Assembly (NCBI GenBank): GCA_017470585.1
Contig: JAFUYI010000050.1
Location: forward strand, 1-55,977
DNA: 55,977 nt
Direction of reading: 5' to 3'
Source: Alphaproteobacteria bacterium
GTDB lineage: Bacteria > Pseudomonadota > Alphaproteobacteria > RF32 > CAG-239
Part shown: positions 1 to 55,625 of the stretch, in pieces
Layout: each line of letters opens with the position of its first letter
Position numbering within the stretch: the stretch's first letter is position 1
Position numbers and translations under genes: made by a program
The notes under the pieces: generated by a model
Seen by the model: the letters and a program-made list of their open reading frames with translations, nothing else
Told to the model about the DNA's origin: nothing
Database searches by the model: none

Positions 1-76
1 AACTTCCGGCCGCCTCTAGATTTATCCTTGGGGCGGCTTCTTTTTTATAACTTTGATAAAAAAAGGAAGTTTGAAT
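1..76 (+). promoter_or_regulatory. 3' end of attenuator leader RNA, cassette 1 (cut by window edge)
   Basis: Only the last part of the leader found upstream of the other seven cassettes is present. It holds a terminator hairpin, GCCGCC (9-14) with GGCGGC (32-37), followed by TTCTTTTTT, and then the ribosome binding site GGAAG at 65-69. The stem differs from the usual CCACCU/AGGUGG, but both arms change together, so pairing is kept. The flank CTTCCGGCC (3-11) corresponds to the switch strand CTTCCAACC of the other copies. Promoter and upstream helices lie outside the window. Presence of the element is clear; its activity is inferred. Confidence 0.75.
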
Positions 77-592
77 ATGAAAAACTATATTTTATTATTT
101 GGCGTTGCTGGTGTCGCTTTAGGCTCTTACGCCGCCTATGCCGGCAATTCCGCCACAATGACCGTTACCGCAACAATCGCCCATGATGTGAGTTTGAGCG
201 TTACTCATGAATTAAATATGGGAACTATTACAGTTGATCCTTCAGATTTTGAGAATGGAGGACACCTAACCATTAACCCTGACGGAACAGTTTATGACAA
301 ATCAGATAATATAATCTCATACAGCGGATTTTCGGCAGGAACTTTTACCGCTAATGTCCCCAATTCGTGCAAGGTTGATGGAGTTGCAAGTGCAGCTGCA
401 GGAAGTTATGCTCATCCTTGCTTCCGAGCTACTCCGACTGACATTACTTTGGGAAATACTGAAATACGCGAACCATCTATTGTCTATGATTCCGGTAATA
501 AATTTAAATTTCAATTTGATCTTATTGCATGGGACACAATACCACAATCCGGAACATTTGATGAAGATATTGAAATTGAATACATCTTATAA
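77..592 (+). CDS. Secreted small beta-rich protein, multicopy cassette family, copy 1
   Basis: Predicted exported protein of 171 residues, function unknown. Residues 1-22 form a signal peptide (MKNYILLFGVAGVALGSYAA, then YA) with likely cleavage AYA-GNS. Residues 23-50 carry the family signature NSATMTVTATIAHDVSLSVT followed by a GTIT strand motif; the rest is beta-rich and copy-specific, ending in IEIEYIL. The pattern resembles DUF4402-type bacterial surface domains (short secreted beta-sandwich, FGTI-like strand, final T-x-x-I-x-Y strand), by memory only. An upstream in-frame ATG at 53 lies before the GGAAG ribosome binding site, so ATG 77 is chosen. Body has only two Cys and is the most divergent of the eight. 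Single-gene unit under its own leader. Confidence 0.8.
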   Translation: MKNYILLFGVAGVALGSYAAYAGNSATMTVTATIAHDVSLSVTHELNMGTITVDPSDFENGGHLTINPDGTVYDKSDNIISYSGFSAGTFTANVPNSCKVDGVASAAAGSYAHPCFRATPTDITLGNTEIREPSIVYDSGNKFKFQFDLIAWDTIPQSGTFDEDIEIEYIL

Positions 593-12073: not shown

Positions 12074-12304
12074 TGAAACAAGGAAATCTTGTTTTGGGGT
12101 GTAACGACCTCTTGTCTGGTGTCATATCAAGACATAAAATTGCTTTCAGTCGTATATTATGGCTGGAAGGTGAAGGAATAAGGTATGATCCAAATACTTC
12201 ACACTGTTCCAGACAACAGTCGTTAACTTCCAGCCACCTCGCGGGTTTGAACGCCCAACAGGTGGCTTTCTTTGTTATAGCTTTAATAAAAAAAGGAAGT
12301 TTTT
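12074..12304 (+). promoter_or_regulatory. Structured attenuator leader RNA, cassette 2
   Basis: Complete leader. P1: AAACAAG/CTTGTTT. A conserved GGGGT/ACCTC hairpin overlaps arm A. Long-range helix: A AACGAC (12103-12108) with GTCGTT (12219-12224); B TGTCTGG (12113-12119) with CCAGACA (12209-12215). Inner stem Q: GTGAAG/CTTCAC, enclosing AATAAGG and CCAAATA. Switch: GGCTGGAAG (12161-12169) can pair with CTTCCAGCC (12227-12235), which overlaps the 5' arm of the terminator GCCACCT (12233-12239)/AGGTGGC (12260-12266) plus a T-rich tail. Both arms of the switch carry a change relative to other copies, preserving pairing. The ribosome binding site is GGAAG at 12295-12299. Confidence 0.75.
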
Positions 12305-12835
12305 ATGATGAAAAATTATATTTTACTGCTCGGCGTTGCCGGTGTCGCTTTAGGCTCTTACTGTGCCTATGCAAGCAACTCTGCCACAATGACCGTCACC
12401 GCCACAATAGCTCATGATGTGAGCTTGAGCGTTACTCAAGATATAAACCTTGGCACAATCACCATAAACCCGGCGGCTACAAAATATACAGATTGGGAAT
12501 ACACAGAAGGCAAATATTCTTTACTCTCTGGCGATGGTATTGTTTCGGCAGACGATGCAACTATTGGTATTTTTACTGCTAATATCCCAAATCCTTCTGC
12601 TTGTGAAGATACATTGTTACAAGAATGCAACGGATTGAGTGTTACACCAGAGATGTATAATATCTTCGGCGGAAATGATAATAGCAATTCATGCGGTGCG
12701 TCTTTCTCATACAGCGGAACAGAAAATATTTTTAATATGTATGTAGGTGGTTGCTCGATAGATGAAGGCAAAATTTCTTCCGTTACTCCCGGAATGCACA
12801 CCAGCACGATTACCATTTCCTATAATTCGGAATAG
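12305..12835 (+). CDS. Secreted small beta-rich protein, cassette family, copy 2 (four-Cys type)
   Basis: 176 residues; predicted exported, function unknown. The signal peptide ends at AYA-SNS (about residue 23), followed by the constant NSATMTVTATIAHDVSLSVT region and LGTITINPA. The variable body has four Cys: the NPSACEDTLL segment, ECNGLSV, NSCGASF and GGCSID. Copies 5 and 7 share this four-Cys spacing, suggesting two disulfides outside the cytoplasm. It ends GMHTSTITISYNSE, a strand typical of the family's last position. The start is one of two adjacent ATGs five bases after GGAAG. Single gene between an upstream and a downstream terminator. Confidence 0.82.
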   Translation: MMKNYILLLGVAGVALGSYCAYASNSATMTVTATIAHDVSLSVTQDINLGTITINPAATKYTDWEYTEGKYSLLSGDGIVSADDATIGIFTANIPNPSACEDTLLQECNGLSVTPEMYNIFGGNDNSNSCGASFSYSGTENIFNMYVGGCSIDEGKISSVTPGMHTSTITISYNSE

Positions 12836-20418: not shown

Positions 20419-20883
20419 CTATTGCGCAGAATATGAAATGGTAATAGTCCCGGAATGCTCTCCCTCAGAAGGAACAGAGCTATAATCAATACTTCCACCC
20501 ACTTCAAATTGATTGCCGGATTTATGTTCAATGCCGAGGTTTCCTACCACAAAACCAGCCATGTCATTATTATCAGTTACAGATAATCCGGTTCTTTGCG
20601 ATGGATTAGGTACATTAGCCGTAAAAGTACCGATATGATAATCCCTTACCGCCATTACTCCACCGCCATAATCTACTTCTGTCGGATTCCTAAATGCAAT
20701 ACCTCCACTTGTTTCACTAGGGTTTATGGTTAGATTGCCGAAACTTAACGATTCGCCCAAAGTCAAACTCACATCGTGGACTATTGTTGCGGTAACAGTC
20801 ATAGTTGCCGAGTTGCTGGCGTATGCGCAGTATGAACCCAAAGCAACTCCGGCAACACCAAGTAATAAAATATATTTATTCAT
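20419..20883 (-). CDS. Secreted small beta-rich protein, cassette family, copy 3
   Basis: 154 residues; exported, function unknown. Signal peptide MNKYILLLGVAGVALGSYCA ends at AYA-SNS; the constant NSATMTVTATIVHDVSLTLG follows, then FGNLTINPSE, the only copy with FGN in place of LGT. The body lacks mature-region Cys and carries the YGGGVMAVRD-type segment shared with copies 6 and 8, then GTFTANVPNPS and the final SGTITISYSAQ. ATG 20883 is used because GGAAG lies just upstream; an in-frame ATG eight codons earlier precedes that site. Own promoter, leader and terminator. Confidence 0.82.
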   Translation of the reverse strand: MNKYILLLGVAGVALGSYCAYASNSATMTVTATIVHDVSLTLGESLSFGNLTINPSETSGGIAFRNPTEVDYGGGVMAVRDYHIGTFTANVPNPSQRTGLSVTDNNDMAGFVVGNLGIEHKSGNQFEVGGSIDYSSVPSEGEHSGTITISYSAQ

Positions 20884-21104
20884 AAGTCTTACTTCCTTTT
20901 TTATCAAAATTATAAAGAAAAACCACCTTTTGGGTATTAAACCCGCGAGGTGGTTGGAAGTTAGCTACTGTTAAGTGGAACAGTGCAGGGTATTCTTTAT
21001 ATTTCCCCACCTTCCAACCATAATACGGTTAGAAGAAATTTTATATCTTATCAGACACCACTTAAGAGGTAGCTACACCTCAAAGCAGAATTTTCCCTGC
21101 TTCA
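20884..21104 (-). promoter_or_regulatory. Structured attenuator leader RNA, cassette 3
   Basis: Complete leader. P1: AAGCAG/CTGCTT. GAGGT/ACCTC hairpin. Helix A: TAGCTAC (complement at 21069-21075) with GTAGCTA (20962-20968). Helix B: TTAAGTGG (21058-21065) with CCACTTAA (20971-20978). Inner stem Q: GTGGGG with CCCTGCAC (bulged). Switch: GGTTGGAAG (21011-21019) with CTTCCAACC (20952-20960). Terminator: AACCACCT/AGGTGGTT (20921-20955) with GGGT/ACCC inside, followed by TTTTCTTTAT. Helices A and B have a sequence unlike any other copy but remain fully paired. Confidence 0.77.
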
Positions 21105-27522: not shown

Positions 27523-27975
27523 TTATCCCGGATTATAGTTAATGGTAATATTGCCGAAGTTATACTTTCTTGCGGCAGGGGCTCCGCCGGTATATGATAA
27601 TTTGCCGCAAACATCATAATACGGAGGCTCATACGGCACTATAGTAAAACTATCAACCGTAATATTTCCGCTGCTTAAACTTGACGGAGATATGGATAAA
27701 CGTGAGTTATCCCCTACATTTGCCGTAAAACCGCCCGTATCTGTCGCTTCTCTTATGACACCTTCGCCATCAATCTCTAAAGTACAAGCATCTACCCATC
27801 CGCTGTCTTTAGATGGATCAATCGTAACGGATAAATCAAGGTTGCCGTTATTGCTTAGGCTTACATCGTGTTCAATCGTTGCGGTAACGGTCATTGTAGC
27901 GGAGTTGTCGGCATAAGCGCAGTAAGAGCCAAGTGCGACACCGGCAACGCCGAGCAATAAAATATATTTGTTCAT
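27523..27975 (-). CDS. Secreted small beta-rich protein, cassette family, copy 4
   Basis: 150 residues, the shortest copy. Signal peptide MNKYILLLGVAGVALGSYCA, cleavage AYA-DNS, then the constant SATMTVTATIEHDVSLSNNG. The strand motif reads LDLSVTIDPSKDSG, lacking the GTI of other copies. Two body Cys (DACTLE and DVCGKL). The GFTANVGDNSRLSISPSSL segment parallels FTANIPNPS of the others; it ends FGNITINYNPG. Start 27975 follows GGAAG. Bounded by its own leader upstream and a hairpin terminator downstream. Extracytoplasmic role unknown. Confidence 0.82.
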   Translation of the reverse strand: MNKYILLLGVAGVALGSYCAYADNSATMTVTATIEHDVSLSNNGNLDLSVTIDPSKDSGWVDACTLEIDGEGVIREATDTGGFTANVGDNSRLSISPSSLSSGNITVDSFTIVPYEPPYYDVCGKLSYTGGAPAARKYNFGNITINYNPG

Positions 27976-28203
27976 CTTAAAAACTTCCTTCTTTTATTAA
28001 AGTTATAAAGAAAAACCACCTTTTGGGTACAAAACCCGCGAGGTGGTTGGAAGCTAGAAACTGACTGTTAGTTCAGTGCAAAGTATTTGGCTTCCACCTT
28101 ATTTCTTTGCCTTCCAACCATAATAGCAGGAAGAATTTTTACGTTTTCTTAAAAACGCTAACAGAGAGGCTTCTAGACCTCAAAGTGACTTTTCATTCAC
28201 TTC
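27976..28203 (-). promoter_or_regulatory. Structured attenuator leader RNA, cassette 4
   Basis: Complete leader. P1: AAGTGA/TCACTT. GAGGT/ACCTC-type hairpin. Helix A: CTAGAAGC/GTTTCTAG (one G-U). Helix B: CTGTTAG/CTAACAG. Local hairpin: GCGTTTT/AAAACGT. Stem Q: GCAAAG/CTTTGC, enclosing AATAAGG and CCAAATA. Switch: GGTTGGAAG with CTTCCAACC. Terminator: AACCACCT/AGGTGGTT (28014-28048) with GGGT/ACCC inside and TTTTTCTTTAT after. All helices differ in sequence from the neighbours' but pair. Confidence 0.77.
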
Positions 28204-31910: not shown

Positions 31911-32444
31911 TTATTCGGCATTGTAAGAGATGGTCAATGTTCCTGTATGAGTGCCGGTGGTAACTTGAGAGACATCTCTTATCAAGCATTCATTTACATC
32001 AACAATAAAACTTCTTTCACTTCCGCTATATTTAATATTGAAATCACAGTAATTAGTATTACTCCCTCCAAAGATATTTCTAATTTCATTACCGTTATTT
32101 CCGGTGATACTCAATCCTCCGCATATAGGAGCATTGCCGGTGCAAACGGACGGATTAGGAATATTAGCTATAAAAGTCCCAAAGGTAATATTATCTGCCG
32201 AAGTAATAGCTCCTTGTATTTCATAGCTGATTGGACCACTAGAAAGATAGTTCCACTGTGTATCACTTCCCGTATAAGCCGGATTGATGGTAATTGTGCC
32301 AAAATCCAAATCTTGGGTAACATTCAAGCTGACATCGTGGGCGATTGTTGCGGTAACGGTCATAGTTGCCGAGTTGCTGGCGTATGCAGCGTAACTGCCA
32401 AGAGCAACACCGGCAATGCCTATTAGTAAAATATAGTTTTTCAT
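31911..32444 (-). CDS. Secreted small beta-rich protein, cassette family, copy 5 (four-Cys type)
   Basis: 177 residues, exported, function unknown. Signal peptide MKNYILLIGIAGVALGSYAA, cleavage AYA-SNS, constant NSATMTVTATIAHDVSLNVT, then FGTITINPAYTGSDTQWNY. Four body Cys at NPSVC, PICGGLSI, NYCDFNI and NECLIRD match copies 2 and 7. The INPAYTG segment is almost identical to copy 7 (NPAYTGND), showing recent shared descent. Ends GTHTGTLTISYNAE. A TTG two codons upstream is in frame; ATG 32444 after GGAAG is chosen. Confidence 0.83.
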   Translation of the reverse strand: MKNYILLIGIAGVALGSYAAYASNSATMTVTATIAHDVSLNVTQDLDFGTITINPAYTGSDTQWNYLSSGPISYEIQGAITSADNITFGTFIANIPNPSVCTGNAPICGGLSITGNNGNEIRNIFGGSNTNYCDFNIKYSGSERSFIVDVNECLIRDVSQVTTGTHTGTLTISYNAE

Positions 32445-32679
32445 ATTCAAACTTCCTTCTTTAGTTTCTTTATAACTTTAATAAAAGAAACCACCCGTTG
32501 GAGCTGTATGCTCCGCGAGGTGGTTGGAAGTTTCAGACTGTTGTCTAGAACAGTGTTGAGTATTTGGTTAAACCTTATTTCCCAACCTTCCAACCATAAC
32601 GGCAGGAATAAATTTTACGTTTTTATAAAACGCTAGACAAGAGGTCTGAACACCTCAAAGTGACTTTTCATTCACTTCG
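32445..32679 (-). promoter_or_regulatory. Structured attenuator leader RNA, cassette 5
   Basis: Complete leader. P1: AAGTGA/TCACTT. Hairpin GAGGT/ACCTC. Helix A: TTCAGAC/GTCTGAA. Helix B: TTGTCTAG/CTAGACAA. Local hairpin: GCGTTTT/AAAACGT. Stem Q: GTTGGG/CTCAAC (one G-U). Switch: GGTTGGAAG with CTTCCAACC. Terminator outer stem AACCACC/GGTGGTT (32489-32525), but the inner stem is GGAGC/GCTCC instead of GGGT/ACCC, a paired replacement. T-rich tail, then GGAAG and the start. Confidence 0.77.
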
Positions 32680-39017: not shown

Positions 39018-39488
39018 TTACCAATTATAGGTGATTTCGACTGTTTCGCTATAGGTTTTCTCTTCAACCTGTCCGCTGTATTGAATCCTTGCATCAACGA
39101 TAAATCTATTAGCGTTAGCATAATTTATGAACGTATTTATATAGATATTGTCAACAGCAATACTTTCAATCCATATAATATTGCATGCTCCATCATAACA
39201 ATCAGTCGATGGATCCGGTATATTTGCCGTAAACTCGCCGAATTGGGTACCTGATACCGAAAGCACACCTCCGCTTACACTCGTGCCATCATAAAAAATA
39301 TCTGCCTGTCCTGCATGTTGGCTCGGATCAATCGTAATTGTGCCAAGATTTAAATCCTTTGTTTTGGTTAAGCTCACATCGTGTTCAATTTTTGCGGTAA
39401 CGGTCATTGTTGCCGAATTGTCCGCATAGGCGGCGTAGCTGCCTATGGAAACCGCGGCTGCACCAATCAATAAAATATATTTTTTCAT
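39018..39488 (-). CDS. Secreted small beta-rich protein, cassette family, copy 6
   Basis: 156 residues, exported, function unknown. Signal peptide MKKYILLIGAAAVSIGSYAA (the most diverged of the set), cleavage AYA-DNS, constant SATMTVTAKIEHDVSLTKTK, then LGTITIDPSQHAG shared with copy 8 (DPSQTTG). Body has GGVLSVSGTQFGEFTANIPD and two Cys close together (DCYDGACN). It ends KTYSETVEITYNW. ATG 39488 is used; the upstream in-frame codons precede the GGAAG site. Divergent from the tmRNA gene. No intrinsic terminator seen before miaB, so readthrough into the miaB operon is possible. Confidence 0.82.
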   Translation of the reverse strand: MKKYILLIGAAAVSIGSYAAYADNSATMTVTAKIEHDVSLTKTKDLNLGTITIDPSQHAGQADIFYDGTSVSGGVLSVSGTQFGEFTANIPDPSTDCYDGACNIIWIESIAVDNIYINTFINYANANRFIVDARIQYSGQVEEKTYSETVEITYNW

Positions 39489-39705
39489 AAGTCTTACTTC
39501 CTTTTTTGTTAATATCAAAAGAAACCACCTTTTGGGTTATTTCCCCGCGAGGTGGTCGGAAGTTAGCAACTGTGATGTAAAACAGTGTAGGGTATTCTTT
39601 ATATTCCCCTACCTTCCAACCATAAGCGATTAGAAGCAATTTTATGTCTTGACAGGACATTACATCAGAGGTTGCTACACCTCAAAGTGACTTTTCACTC
39701 ACTTC
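39489..39705 (-). promoter_or_regulatory. Structured attenuator leader RNA, cassette 6
   Basis: Complete leader. P1: AAGTGA/TCACTT. Hairpin GAGGT/ACCTC. Helix A: TAGCAAC/GTTGCTA. Helix B: TGATGTAA/TTACATCA. Local hairpin: ATGTC/GACAT. Stem Q: GTAGGG/CCCTAC. Switch: GGTTGGAAG with CTTCCGACC (one G-U). Terminator: ACCACCT/AGGTGGT (39523-39557), tail TTTCTTTTG. The ribosome binding site GGAAGT is complementary to ACTTCC of the switch strand. Confidence 0.77.
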
Positions 39706-39740: not shown

Positions 39741-39771
39741 GAAAAATTTTTTAAGTTTTAAAAAAAATCGC

Positions 39772-39800
39772 TTGAAAATAATAATAAAATAAGGTATATT
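39772..39800 (+). promoter_or_regulatory. tmRNA promoter
   Basis: TTGAAA (39772-39777), 17 bp, TATATT (39795-39800), placing the start near 39807. Confidence 0.7.
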
Positions 39801-39806
39801 TTCAGG

Positions 39807-40100
39807 TGTTGAGCAATCAACTGTGATACCAGAGGCACTGCGAAATAGAAATTTCGGACCCGGGGGCGGTACCCGGCGTCTCCACCAACGGGGACGAAAC
39901 AGGTTTGACGGGGTTTAATAAAGGCAGGTGCTGTATTCGGCGAGATACCACCGTTATCGGTTCAAATTAAAATAAATGCTAACGATAATGAATTAGCACC
40001 TGTTGCTTTGGCTGCTTAATTGCGGTCGCAACGAACTTAAATTCTTAAAGCCTTGGTTGGCTTTAAGTGGGGAAGGAGCCGCCCAGCAACAGAAAGGCTC
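39807..40100 (+). ncRNA. ssrA: tmRNA, circularly permuted (alphaproteobacterial two-piece type)
   Basis: Rescues stalled ribosomes by trans-translation. The acceptor half comes first: T-stem CCGGG/CCCGG with loop GGCGGTA, then CGTCTCC-ACCA with CCA at 39885-39887. Only AC separates it from the coding half GGGGACG (39890-39896), which completes the 7-bp acceptor stem. The tag frame 39978-40019 encodes ANDNELAPVALAA followed by TAA. Pseudoknot-like stems follow. Ends are approximate: the 5' end is from the promoter, and the 3' end from the final hairpin GAGCC/GGCTC (40076-40100) with seven T. Mature RNA is expected as two pieces after processing between CCA and GGGG. Confidence 0.92.
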
Positions 40101-40108
40101 ATTTTTTT
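40076..40108 (+). terminator. Terminator of the tmRNA gene
   Basis: GAGCC (40076-40080) pairs with GGCTC (40096-40100) around a 15-nt loop, followed by ATTTTTTT. The loop is long, so the stem may also be part of the RNA. Confidence 0.55.
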
Positions 40109-41744: not shown

Positions 41745-42260
41745 TCAGCTTGGAGCATAAGTAATATACAGCGTTTGGCTTTGAAGACCAAACGGAACTA
41801 CCGATAAGTCAGTTATAAAACAATTAGTCGGATAAACCTTAAAGTTGTTAGAACCGACATATTTTACGCTTATATCGCAATTATTATCCATAGTGTTGCC
41901 AAAAAAACTTTCATTAGAGTAAAAATCCAATCCGCACACACTGTTTGAACCGTTGCAGGCTGTTGGATCGGGCATATTAGCGGTAAATGTGCCGACATTT
42001 ATATCGGGAACCGACACAAGAGCACCTTGCTCGCTAATAGTCACGTCGCCATAATAGCTATAAGTCCATCTTGCCACATCATTTCCGGTATAAGCCGGAT
42101 TGATGGTGATGGTACCTAAATTTATATCGCCGGTTATGGTTAAACTTACATCGTGGGCTATTGTGGCTGTTACGGTCATTGTGGCGGAGTTGCCCGCGTA
42201 TGCGGCGTAAGAGCCTAAAGCAACACCGGCAACGCCAATCAATAAAATATATTTTTTCAT
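41745..42260 (-). CDS. Secreted small beta-rich protein, cassette family, copy 7 (four-Cys type)
   Basis: 171 residues, exported, function unknown. Signal peptide MKKYILLIGVAGVALGSYAA, cleavage AYA-GNS, constant NSATMTVTATIAHDVSLTIT, then LGTITINPAYTGNDVARWTY. Four body Cys (DPTACNG, SVCGLDF, NNCDISV, TNCFITD) align in order with copies 2 and 5. It ends LQSQTLYITYAPS. ATG 42260 follows GGAAG; earlier in-frame codons are in the leader. Own promoter (overlapping the nagZ 3' end), leader and terminator. Confidence 0.83.
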   Translation of the reverse strand: MKKYILLIGVAGVALGSYAAYAGNSATMTVTATIAHDVSLTITGDINLGTITINPAYTGNDVARWTYSYYGDVTISEQGALVSVPDINVGTFTANMPDPTACNGSNSVCGLDFYSNESFFGNTMDNNCDISVKYVGSNNFKVYPTNCFITDLSVVPFGLQSQTLYITYAPS

Positions 42261-42488
42261 ATTAAAAACTTCCTTTTTTATAACTTTAACAAAAGAAACC
42301 ACCTATTGGGTTTTTCACCCGCGAGGTGGTCGGAAGTTCTCAACTATCTTATATAATAGTCTTGCGTATTTGTGAAACCACTTATTCCGCAAGCTTCCGA
42401 CCATAAGCCGGATATAAACCGTATAACGTTCCGGTTCAAACGATATAAGAGAGGTTGAGACACCTCAAAGCGAAAATCCTTCGCTCTA
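42261..42488 (-). promoter_or_regulatory. Structured attenuator leader RNA, cassette 7
   Basis: Complete leader. P1: AGCGAA/TTCGCT. Hairpin around GAGGT/ACCTC. Helix A: TCTCAAC/GTTGAGA. Helix B: TCTTATAT/ATATAAGA. Local hairpin: AACCG/CGGTT. Stem Q: CTTGCG/CGCAAG. Switch: GGTCGGAAG with CTTCCGACC, where both arms carry a change relative to most copies. Terminator: ACCACCT/AGGTGGT (42298-42330), inner GGGT/ACCC, tail TTTCTTTTG. This copy gives the clearest compensatory pair in the switch helix. Confidence 0.78.
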
Positions 42489-54948: not shown

Positions 54949-55169
54949 GAAGCAAGGGATTCTTGCTTTGAGGTTTAGAACCCTCATAGACGATGCCGGT
55001 ATCGAGCATAATGCGATACGTCCGACTTTTTTGCGGTTGGAAGGTGGAGGAATAAGGTTTAACCAAATACTTCATACTATTTCGTCTAATAGGTTCTAAC
55101 TTCCAACCACCTCGCGGGTGATAACCCAACAGGTGGTTTTTTTATAACGTTAAAAAAGGAAGTTTGAAT
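54949..55169 (+). promoter_or_regulatory. Structured attenuator leader RNA, cassette 8
   Basis: Complete leader. P1: AAGCAAG/CTTGCTT. Helix A: TTAGAACC/GGTTCTAA. Helix B: TAGACGA/TCGTCTA. Stem Q: GTGGAG/CTTCAT (two G-U), enclosing AATAAGG and CCAAATA. Switch: GGTTGGAAG (55035-55043) with CTTCCAACC (55100-55108). Terminator: AACCACCT (55105-55112)/AGGTGGTT (55131-55138) with GGGT/ACCC inside and a T tract, the best intrinsic terminator of the set. The ribosome binding site GGAAG follows about 20 nt later, so a transcript stopped here cannot include the gene. Confidence 0.8.
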
Positions 55170-55625
55170 ATGAAAAAATATATTTTATTACTCGGCGTTG
55201 CAAGCGTTGCTTTAGGCTCTTATGCCGCCTATGCCGGCAACTCCGCTACAATGACCGTAACAGCAACAATGGCTCATGATGTGAGTTTAGTCAAAGTAAA
55301 AGATATAAATTTAGGCACAATTACTATTGACCCATCGCAGACAACCGGATGGACAGAGGCAGACCATAGAAGTTCAGCTCCTGAATACGGAGGTGGTGTA
55401 ATTGCCGTGTCCAATTGGGAATGGGGAGAAATTACCGCTAATATCCCTGAGAGTGATACTTTACGCATTATAAATGAGCAAATAGATGCTCCTTTAGGTA
55501 TTGAGGAAGGATTTATTTATCATATTTCAGATAATAGGTACGGCGTAAATTTGTCTATATACTACGACAGCCTTCCGGCACAAAAAACATATAACGGATC
55601 GATTGAGATTATTTATGTGGAATAA
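55170..55625 (+). CDS. Secreted small beta-rich protein, cassette family, copy 8
   Basis: 151 residues, exported, function unknown. Signal peptide MKKYILLLGVASVALGSYAA, cleavage AYA-GNS, constant NSATMTVTATMAHDVSLVKV, then LGTITIDPSQTTGW. No Cys in the mature protein. Carries YGGGVIAVSNWEWGEITANI, the segment shared in pattern with copies 3 and 6. It ends KTYNGSIEIIYVE, close to the ends of copies 1 and 6. ATG 55170 follows GGAAG; a TTG two codons earlier is in frame. No clear terminator: palindromic repeats begin about 110 bp downstream. Confidence 0.82.
   Translation: MKKYILLLGVASVALGSYAAYAGNSATMTVTATMAHDVSLVKVKDINLGTITIDPSQTTGWTEADHRSSAPEYGGGVIAVSNWEWGEITANIPESDTLRIINEQIDAPLGIEEGFIYHISDNRYGVNLSIYYDSLPAQKTYNGSIEIIYVE

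Follow-up and report, generated by a model that had tools for sequence, protein, structure and literature searches.

The window, the whole stretch of 55,977 nucleotides analysed here, is contig 12 of the genome of an uncultured, gut-type alphaproteobacterium (1.55 Mb, 102 contigs, alphaproteobacterial tmRNA). In a comparison of MiaB the nearest named relative was a MAG labelled 'uncultured Azospirillum sp.' (83 %), followed by MAGs of Alphaproteobacteria; many of the MAGs close to the host carry labels of rumen, deer, horse or other gut samples. Eight paralogous genes in the window are each directly preceded by a leader of one kind (Table 1). The initial annotation had placed seven complete leaders and one partial leader in front of every cassette gene, and all eight positions do hold leader sequence, five of the seven complete copies on the minus strand. 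A permuted alphaproteobacterial tmRNA (39768-40103) adjoins one of the cassettes.

Table 1. Leaders, their parts and the adjoining genes in the window
Feature	Position	Strand	Evidence
Complete leader 1 (worked example)	12074-12304	+	Fold, RNAalifold, model match
P1 hairpin, 5' end of leader 1	12075-12095	+	RNAalifold, ViennaRNA
a1 strand (5' side of helix A); its GAGGU also pairs with ACCUC as local P2	12096-12108	+	RNAalifold, covariation
CUC separating a1 from b1; kept as CTC/CCUC in relatives	12109-12111	+	
b1 strand (5' side of helix B)	12112-12119	+	RNAalifold, covariation
P3 hairpin; same place as internal terminator hairpin of C4/RF02221 loci	12120-12134	+	
Local hairpin holding the closing helix 5' strand in the OFF fold	12143-12169	+	
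C4-like core: closing (switch) helix 12161-12169/12227-12235 enclosing Q and H	12161-12235	+	
Core flanks: U preceding GG and ACC after the core, both conserved	12161-12235	+	
Q hairpin with conserved AAUAAGG...CCAAAUA	12170-12202	+	RNAalifold, covariation
H hairpin; loop 12209-12216 = b' (3' side of helix B)	12203-12220	+	Covariation
a' linker (3' side of helix A); overlaps closing helix 3' strand	12219-12231	+	RNAalifold, covariation
Predicted intrinsic terminator; first four stem bases common to closing helix	12232-12273	+	
Shine-Dalgarno GGAAG for the gene starting at 12305	12295-12299	+	
Paralogous secreted protein, family (i), behind leader 1	12305-12835	+	
Partial leader, 3' end at contig edge: closing helix 3' strand, terminator, Shine-Dalgarno	1-76	+	
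Paralogous secreted protein, family (i), ATG at 77, behind partial leader	53-592	+	
Complete leader 2 (core 20914-21025)	20884-21104	-	
Paralogous secreted protein behind leader 2	20419-20883	-	
Complete leader 3 (core 28007-28125)	27976-28203	-	
Paralogous secreted protein behind leader 3	27523-27975	-	
Complete leader 4 (core 32482-32601)	32445-32679	-	
Paralogous secreted protein behind leader 4	31911-32444	-	
Complete leader 5 (core 39516-39627)	39489-39705	-	
Paralogous secreted protein behind leader 5	39018-39488	-	
Complete leader 6 (core 42290-42408)	42261-42488	-	
Paralogous secreted protein behind leader 6	41745-42260	-	
Complete leader 7 (core 55029-55145)	54949-55169	+	
Paralogous secreted protein behind leader 7	55170-55625	+	

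The window paralogs encode secreted proteins about 150-180 aa long, in which the N-terminus is constant (mean identity 0.83) and the mature part diverges (0.39). Pfam gave only a sub-threshold match to DUF4402 for them. The predicted fold of the protein behind leader 1 is beta-rich and bears a weak likeness to PapE, Caf1 and PapA (Z 5.0-5.5). A chaperone-usher pilus was considered and rejected: at this weak likeness other folds are possible, and the host genome holds no usher gene (PF00577). Integron gene cassettes were rejected as well, as an 8-mer comparison showed no common attC-like 3' boundary of the units: no 8-mer occurred in more than 20 of the 148 downstream flanks.

Fold and covariation of the leader

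RNAalifold on the seven complete leaders recovered P1, A, B, the P3 hairpin, the local hairpin, Q and the terminator, and thereby the common plan that had been drawn from the sequence. For 28 of the 59 pairs in this alignment, one or more copies have both bases changed, and the switch helix varies in the same compensatory way. Covariation was then assessed on 131 leaders of the host genome by a G-test with average-product correction against a tree-preserving null (60 simulations on the leaders' own tree, about 1.7 million pair scores), using our own R-scape-like script, not R-scape itself. On this set 14 column pairs, all in A, B, Q or H, scored above the highest null value, and 15 had an E below 0.05. 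The covarying columns are 46-49/161-164 in A, 56-62/149-155 in B, 112-113/139-140 in Q, 147/156 in H and 185/193 in the terminator, and all these pairs are at least 97 % Watson-Crick or GU. Across 72 diverse cores, relatives included, the switch helix was 99.2 % paired with eight of its nine pairs changed on both sides, values matched by none of 500 shuffles; covariation in this set also covers Q, H and the terminator. A fold by chance is excluded.

Several strands of the leader have more than one partner. The loop of the conserved hairpin H (columns 143-147/156-160) coincides exactly with the 3' strand of B, so that B is either a loop pairing, i.e., a pseudoknot, or an alternative to H. GAGGU can pair within the local hairpin P2 or within A, and the 3' strand of A is in part the 3' strand of the switch helix. 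Owing to these overlaps with the switch helix and the H loop, A and B together compete with the closed core. The 3' strand of the closing helix in turn overlaps both a' and the foot of the intrinsic terminator, hence the closed core also competes with the terminator foot. The loop of Q is highly conserved (entropy 0.32 bits) while the stems vary, the core starts with U-GG and ends with ACC in nearly all copies, and nearly every core lies directly 5' of a gene with terminator and Shine-Dalgarno sequence.

Copies and downstream genes in the host genome and its relatives

A covariance model of the core (R1) found at least 149 places in the host genome at an E of 1e-16 or lower, and a core sequence pattern found 116, against none for the reversed control. 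The union of both with two further searches came to about 195 places on 80 contigs; since some of these are partial copies and one pair of contigs or more is duplicated, 151 distinct leaders is the safe count. Duplicated matches were seen on contigs C37 and C70. Thirty-four leaders lie less than 700 nt from a contig start, the partial leader of the window being one such start. The assembly breaks near leaders were probably caused by the repeated leaders and the repeated N-termini of the genes.

Host leaders sit almost always ahead of either of two paralogous families of secreted proteins. Among 149 leaders with a gene in reach, 110 genes passed a simple filter for family (i), the SATMTVTATIxHDVSL type, and 31 that for family (ii), the NKTFLILLL...ISTTIDHEI type; the remaining eight comprised variants of family (i), two wrong-frame ORF calls and two lipoproteins.

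An improved covariance model of the leader (R2) was run on genomes of the order, class and phylum and matched 150 of 153, 42 of 385 and 6 of 299 genomes, respectively. Most members of the order have from a few to about 25 or more copies among the matches listed. In relatives the genes behind the leaders encode porin or opacity-like barrels, type IV pilin-like proteins, PEGA lipoproteins and glycosyltransferases. One genome of another genus (G028) carries at least 92 leaders, and its loci L031 and L120-L148 mostly precede type IV pilin-like paralogs with a common NGRSMIEMLGVLAIIGVLSVGGIAGYSKAM start. With pilin paralogs there and the secreted families in the host, amplification of the leader took place in two lineages, on gene families that are unrelated to each other; the leaders of G028 are a second, independent surface repertoire. 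A genome from another family of the class (G054) has at least 16 copies, of which two stand in tandem (L038:1501-1897) with no gene found within 90 nt. In a genome of the host's own genus (G009), three leaders follow each other about 250 nt apart (L057:1381-2110) with no clear ORF between the first two, as if leaders could exist alone as short RNAs.

Kinship with sRNA-Xcc1 and probably with C4 RNAs

In Rfam scans of the window and of relatives, permissive scans included, no family reached its gathering score on the leaders, neither a riboswitch nor a T-box nor any other, which agrees with the initial statement that this is not a named leader. We found no literature describing the leader, or a C4 link of it, in Alphaproteobacteria. 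The label 'undescribed' nevertheless stands only as far as the gathering scores go, for the core is a divergent relative of sRNA-Xcc1 (RF02221) and has the part order of the c4 region of phage P1. Three loci, one alphaproteobacterial and two outside the class, match RF02221 below its cut-off, the match spanning precisely the closing helix, Q and H. In the host genome the RF02221 model hit 31 places (best E 5e-5, best score 36.9 bits), none of which reached the gathering cut-off of 53 bits. It matched 84 of 134 genomes of the order but none of 14 controls, and exceeded the cut-off in one of the 134. Conversely, a model built on the alphaproteobacterial sequences matched 15 of 24 true RF02221 loci at an E of 0.06 or lower. 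These reciprocal matches fall on the same positions and indicate homology and a secondary structure common to the leader and RF02221.

The likeness extends upstream of the part modelled in Rfam. Within the 110 nt upstream of the 24 RF02221 loci a two-part strand is complementary to the H loop and the next linker (mean 15.5 versus 11.3 in mismatched combinations), and among alphaproteobacterial relatives 56 of 60 have a two-part a1-b1 pairing above the 95 % level of mismatches. At most of the RF02221 loci a hairpin with a U run comes after this upstream a1-b1, and a second a/b copy lies around the Shine-Dalgarno sequence, above the 95 % level of mismatches in 11 of 18 cases. The ribosome-binding site of L178, for instance, reads TCGAAAA-GGAG-AATAGTAGC, the second copy flanking the Shine-Dalgarno sequence. 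The upstream a1 and b1 recur at the ribosome-binding site of L178, L184, L185, L186, L173 and further RF02221 loci, where the Shine-Dalgarno sequence stands instead of CCCC. By this repeat, sRNA-Xcc1 loci look like C4-type immunity modules, not stand-alone trans sRNAs, and RF02221 may be just the 3' half of a larger module. Seven of ten tested proteins encoded downstream of RF02221 loci were phage antirepressors (Bro-N, P22_AR_N, KilA-N) or SymE, and sRNA-Xcc1 has been reported upstream of symE in Xanthomonas integron cassettes (PMC12444791). A blast search of the RF02221-like locus L165 against plasmids and phages gave no match. Intermediates occur in the host's own order: L274 (56 bits, above the RF02221 cut-off) and L275 keep, as judged by eye, an older a2/b2-like plan, while L276 (43.5 bits) has a terminator and a lipoprotein gene.

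C4 is an antisense RNA that serves immunity in phage P1. The annotation of this phage gives the order a1, b1, C4 RNA and then a2 and b2 at the start of icd; Rfam finds C4 and c4-a1b1 in it, and the flanks UUAUGG and CCACC around its C4 recur in the window leaders. Set against the structure line of RF01695, the leader has the same closed stem around a short hairpin and a b'-loop hairpin, followed by a linker a'. The helix initially described as A, then CUC, then B is borne out, and it corresponds to the a1-b1/a'-b' pairing of C4-type systems: 122 of the 131 leaders pair all seven b positions and 130 all six a positions with the upstream a1/b1. RF01695 itself (gathering score 45 bits) had a single match in the host genome, away from the leaders (15.6 bits, E 2.5), R2 matched nothing in phage P1, C4 included, and no a2-b2 at the ribosome-binding site was seen by eye in the window leaders. 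Since it reaches neither gathering score and lacks the a2/b2 target, the leader is not filed as C4 or as sRNA-Xcc1. The part order and flanks of P1, together with the intermediate RF02221 loci, support reading it as a C4-type module, and a relationship to the C4/sRNA-Xcc1 group appears highly probable from these sequence features.

Pairing codes and a putative switch

The a1+b1 sequences differ from copy to copy. Among the 131 host leaders 130 are distinct, as are all 30 in G028, and only 106 of 8515 leader pairs are b-compatible. In five pairs of leaders at least 90 % identical elsewhere, 51 % of the a/b positions are common versus 90 % in the Q stem. With each column class left out of its own tree, changes per column amounted to 49.7 for a/b, 42.3 for the promoter spacer, 38.9 for the terminator loop, 33.3 for the Q stem and 22.7-29.7 for the other classes; the a/b columns thus change most although they are paired, by a modest margin over promoter spacer and terminator loop. 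Paired columns that change at least as fast as unpaired or untranscribed ones suggest diversifying selection, most simply against cross-talk, for which the small margin is support and not proof. With nearly every copy having its own code, the effect of a leader, or of a short terminated RNA derived from it, should be confined to its own gene and leave the other 150-200 untouched. We give about even chances to the codes being private addresses in this sense.

These rates also bear on a small-molecule or ion riboswitch, in which the internal loop of Q would be a binding pocket and one signal would switch all surface genes together. The conserved Q loop between variable stems fits a pocket, many riboswitches have two exclusive folds and a terminator, and the porins, pilins, lipoproteins and glycosyltransferases of the relatives would make a plausible envelope regulon. 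A single ligand, however, leaves the faster divergence of a/b codes than of loops unexplained, no Rfam riboswitch matched, and the same RNA family stands before phage antirepressor and SymE genes, which have no obvious metabolite in common with pilins. We regard a riboswitch as improbable.

The arrangement points instead to control of transcription by competing helices. The 5' segments a1, CUC and b1 are, by sequence and covariation, complementary to the a' linker and the b' hairpin loop inside the closed core, and the leader has mutually exclusive terminator and antiterminator helices, both conserved by compensatory change. It is probably a transcription attenuator. If a1-b1 pairs with b'-a', the closing helix would open, the terminator would form and the gene would be off; if the core folds on itself with the closing helix formed, the terminator would lack its lower four base pairs and RNA polymerase would read into the surface-protein gene. 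Kinetics, free core RNA in trans, an RNase P-type cleavage before GG or a protein would be candidates for tipping the balance. In ViennaRNA calculations the OFF fold (A, B and terminator) was the minimum free energy structure of all seven window leaders, with the forced closed-core (ON) fold 8 to 16 kcal/mol higher, so the computed default state is off. The nascent RNA without the terminator arm came near balance in three of the seven, with closed-core probabilities of 0.39-0.88. It counts against the attenuator that the ON fold blocks just four terminator pairs. Promoter, termination, direction of the switch and private addressing are all what we infer, and the regulatory role keeps the inferential standing it was given in the initial annotation.

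A C4-like trans antisense RNA would place the weight elsewhere: a short terminated or RNase P-processed core would be the main product and silence other genes by pairing, with the downstream gene secondary. Northern blot and RACE identified sRNA-Xcc1 as an 88-nt RNA (PMC2996969). C4 has three stem-loops, pairs with its target through the loops a' and b', is cut by RNase P at a GGW motif and afterwards acts in trans (PMC5320573); the U-GG start and ACC end of the window cores would suit such processing. Yet the position of nearly every core directly before a gene with terminator and Shine-Dalgarno sequence, a code private to each copy and the lack of any a2/b2 target seen at the Shine-Dalgarno sequence in Alphaproteobacteria make this quite improbable. 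A translational switch, in which AACUUCC of the core would mask a GGAAGUU Shine-Dalgarno sequence that the closing helix releases, is very improbable, because the complementarity, which tracks the core in the deviating relatives L047, L049, L054 and L057 but not in L031 and L058, was hardly higher in own pairs (6.94) than in mismatched ones (6.46; single-run complementarity over 52 alphaproteobacterial relatives).

We thus read the leader, on balance, as a chromosomal relative of the C4/sRNA-Xcc1-type phage antisense module that was probably rebuilt into a cis-acting transcription attenuator. On this reading, three RNAs so far treated separately would belong together: the immunity RNA C4 of phages, the 'trans-acting' sRNA-Xcc1 and a leader without a name that is present in 150 of 153 genomes of the order. 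A phage-type antisense switch would have been scaled to an antigen repertoire twice, on the weakly DUF4402-like secreted family in the host and on type IV pilin-like proteins in G028. An RNA-addressed surface repertoire, in which 150-200 genes would each be switched independently and bistably by their own code and selection against cross-talk would keep the codes apart, is a tentative and rather unlikely extension; if true, it would allow combinatorial antigen expression without DNA rearrangement. The proposed avoidance of cross-talk would explain, in a testable way, why the pairing codes are so diverse.

Among known systems, T-box and riboswitch attenuators likewise have a terminator and a competing antiterminator helix in a 5' leader, but the leader has no Rfam match to them, and the competition within it comes from a private antisense pair instead of a tRNA or a known ligand pocket. 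sRNA-Xcc1 has in common with it the closing 9-bp helix, Q with an AAUA-type internal loop, H, the linker and the R-CC tail, as well as the upstream a1-b1; it differs in its description as a stand-alone trans sRNA, in the U-run hairpin that most RF02221 loci keep after b1 and in the a2-SD-b2 target of many of them, a2/b2 being absent from the leaders. The Group 1 C4-derived sRNAs of Acinetobacter baumannii are multi-copy chromosomal C4 relatives as well, with the a' segment as variable part, but they are stand-alone RNAs with uncertain targets and not leaders of a paralogous gene family (PMC5320573). C4 of phages P1/P7 (RF01695, RF03163, clan CL00128) shows the same order of a1, b1 and a closed RNA with short hairpin, b'-loop hairpin and a' linker, and its specificity also resides in short variable a/b segments (PMC5320573). 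Unlike C4, which occurs as one copy before ant, the leaders form 150-200 chromosomal copies before surface genes and carry an intrinsic terminator in place of an a2-SD-b2 target. The proposed separation of their codes may be likened to the heteroimmunity that separates phage C4 systems.
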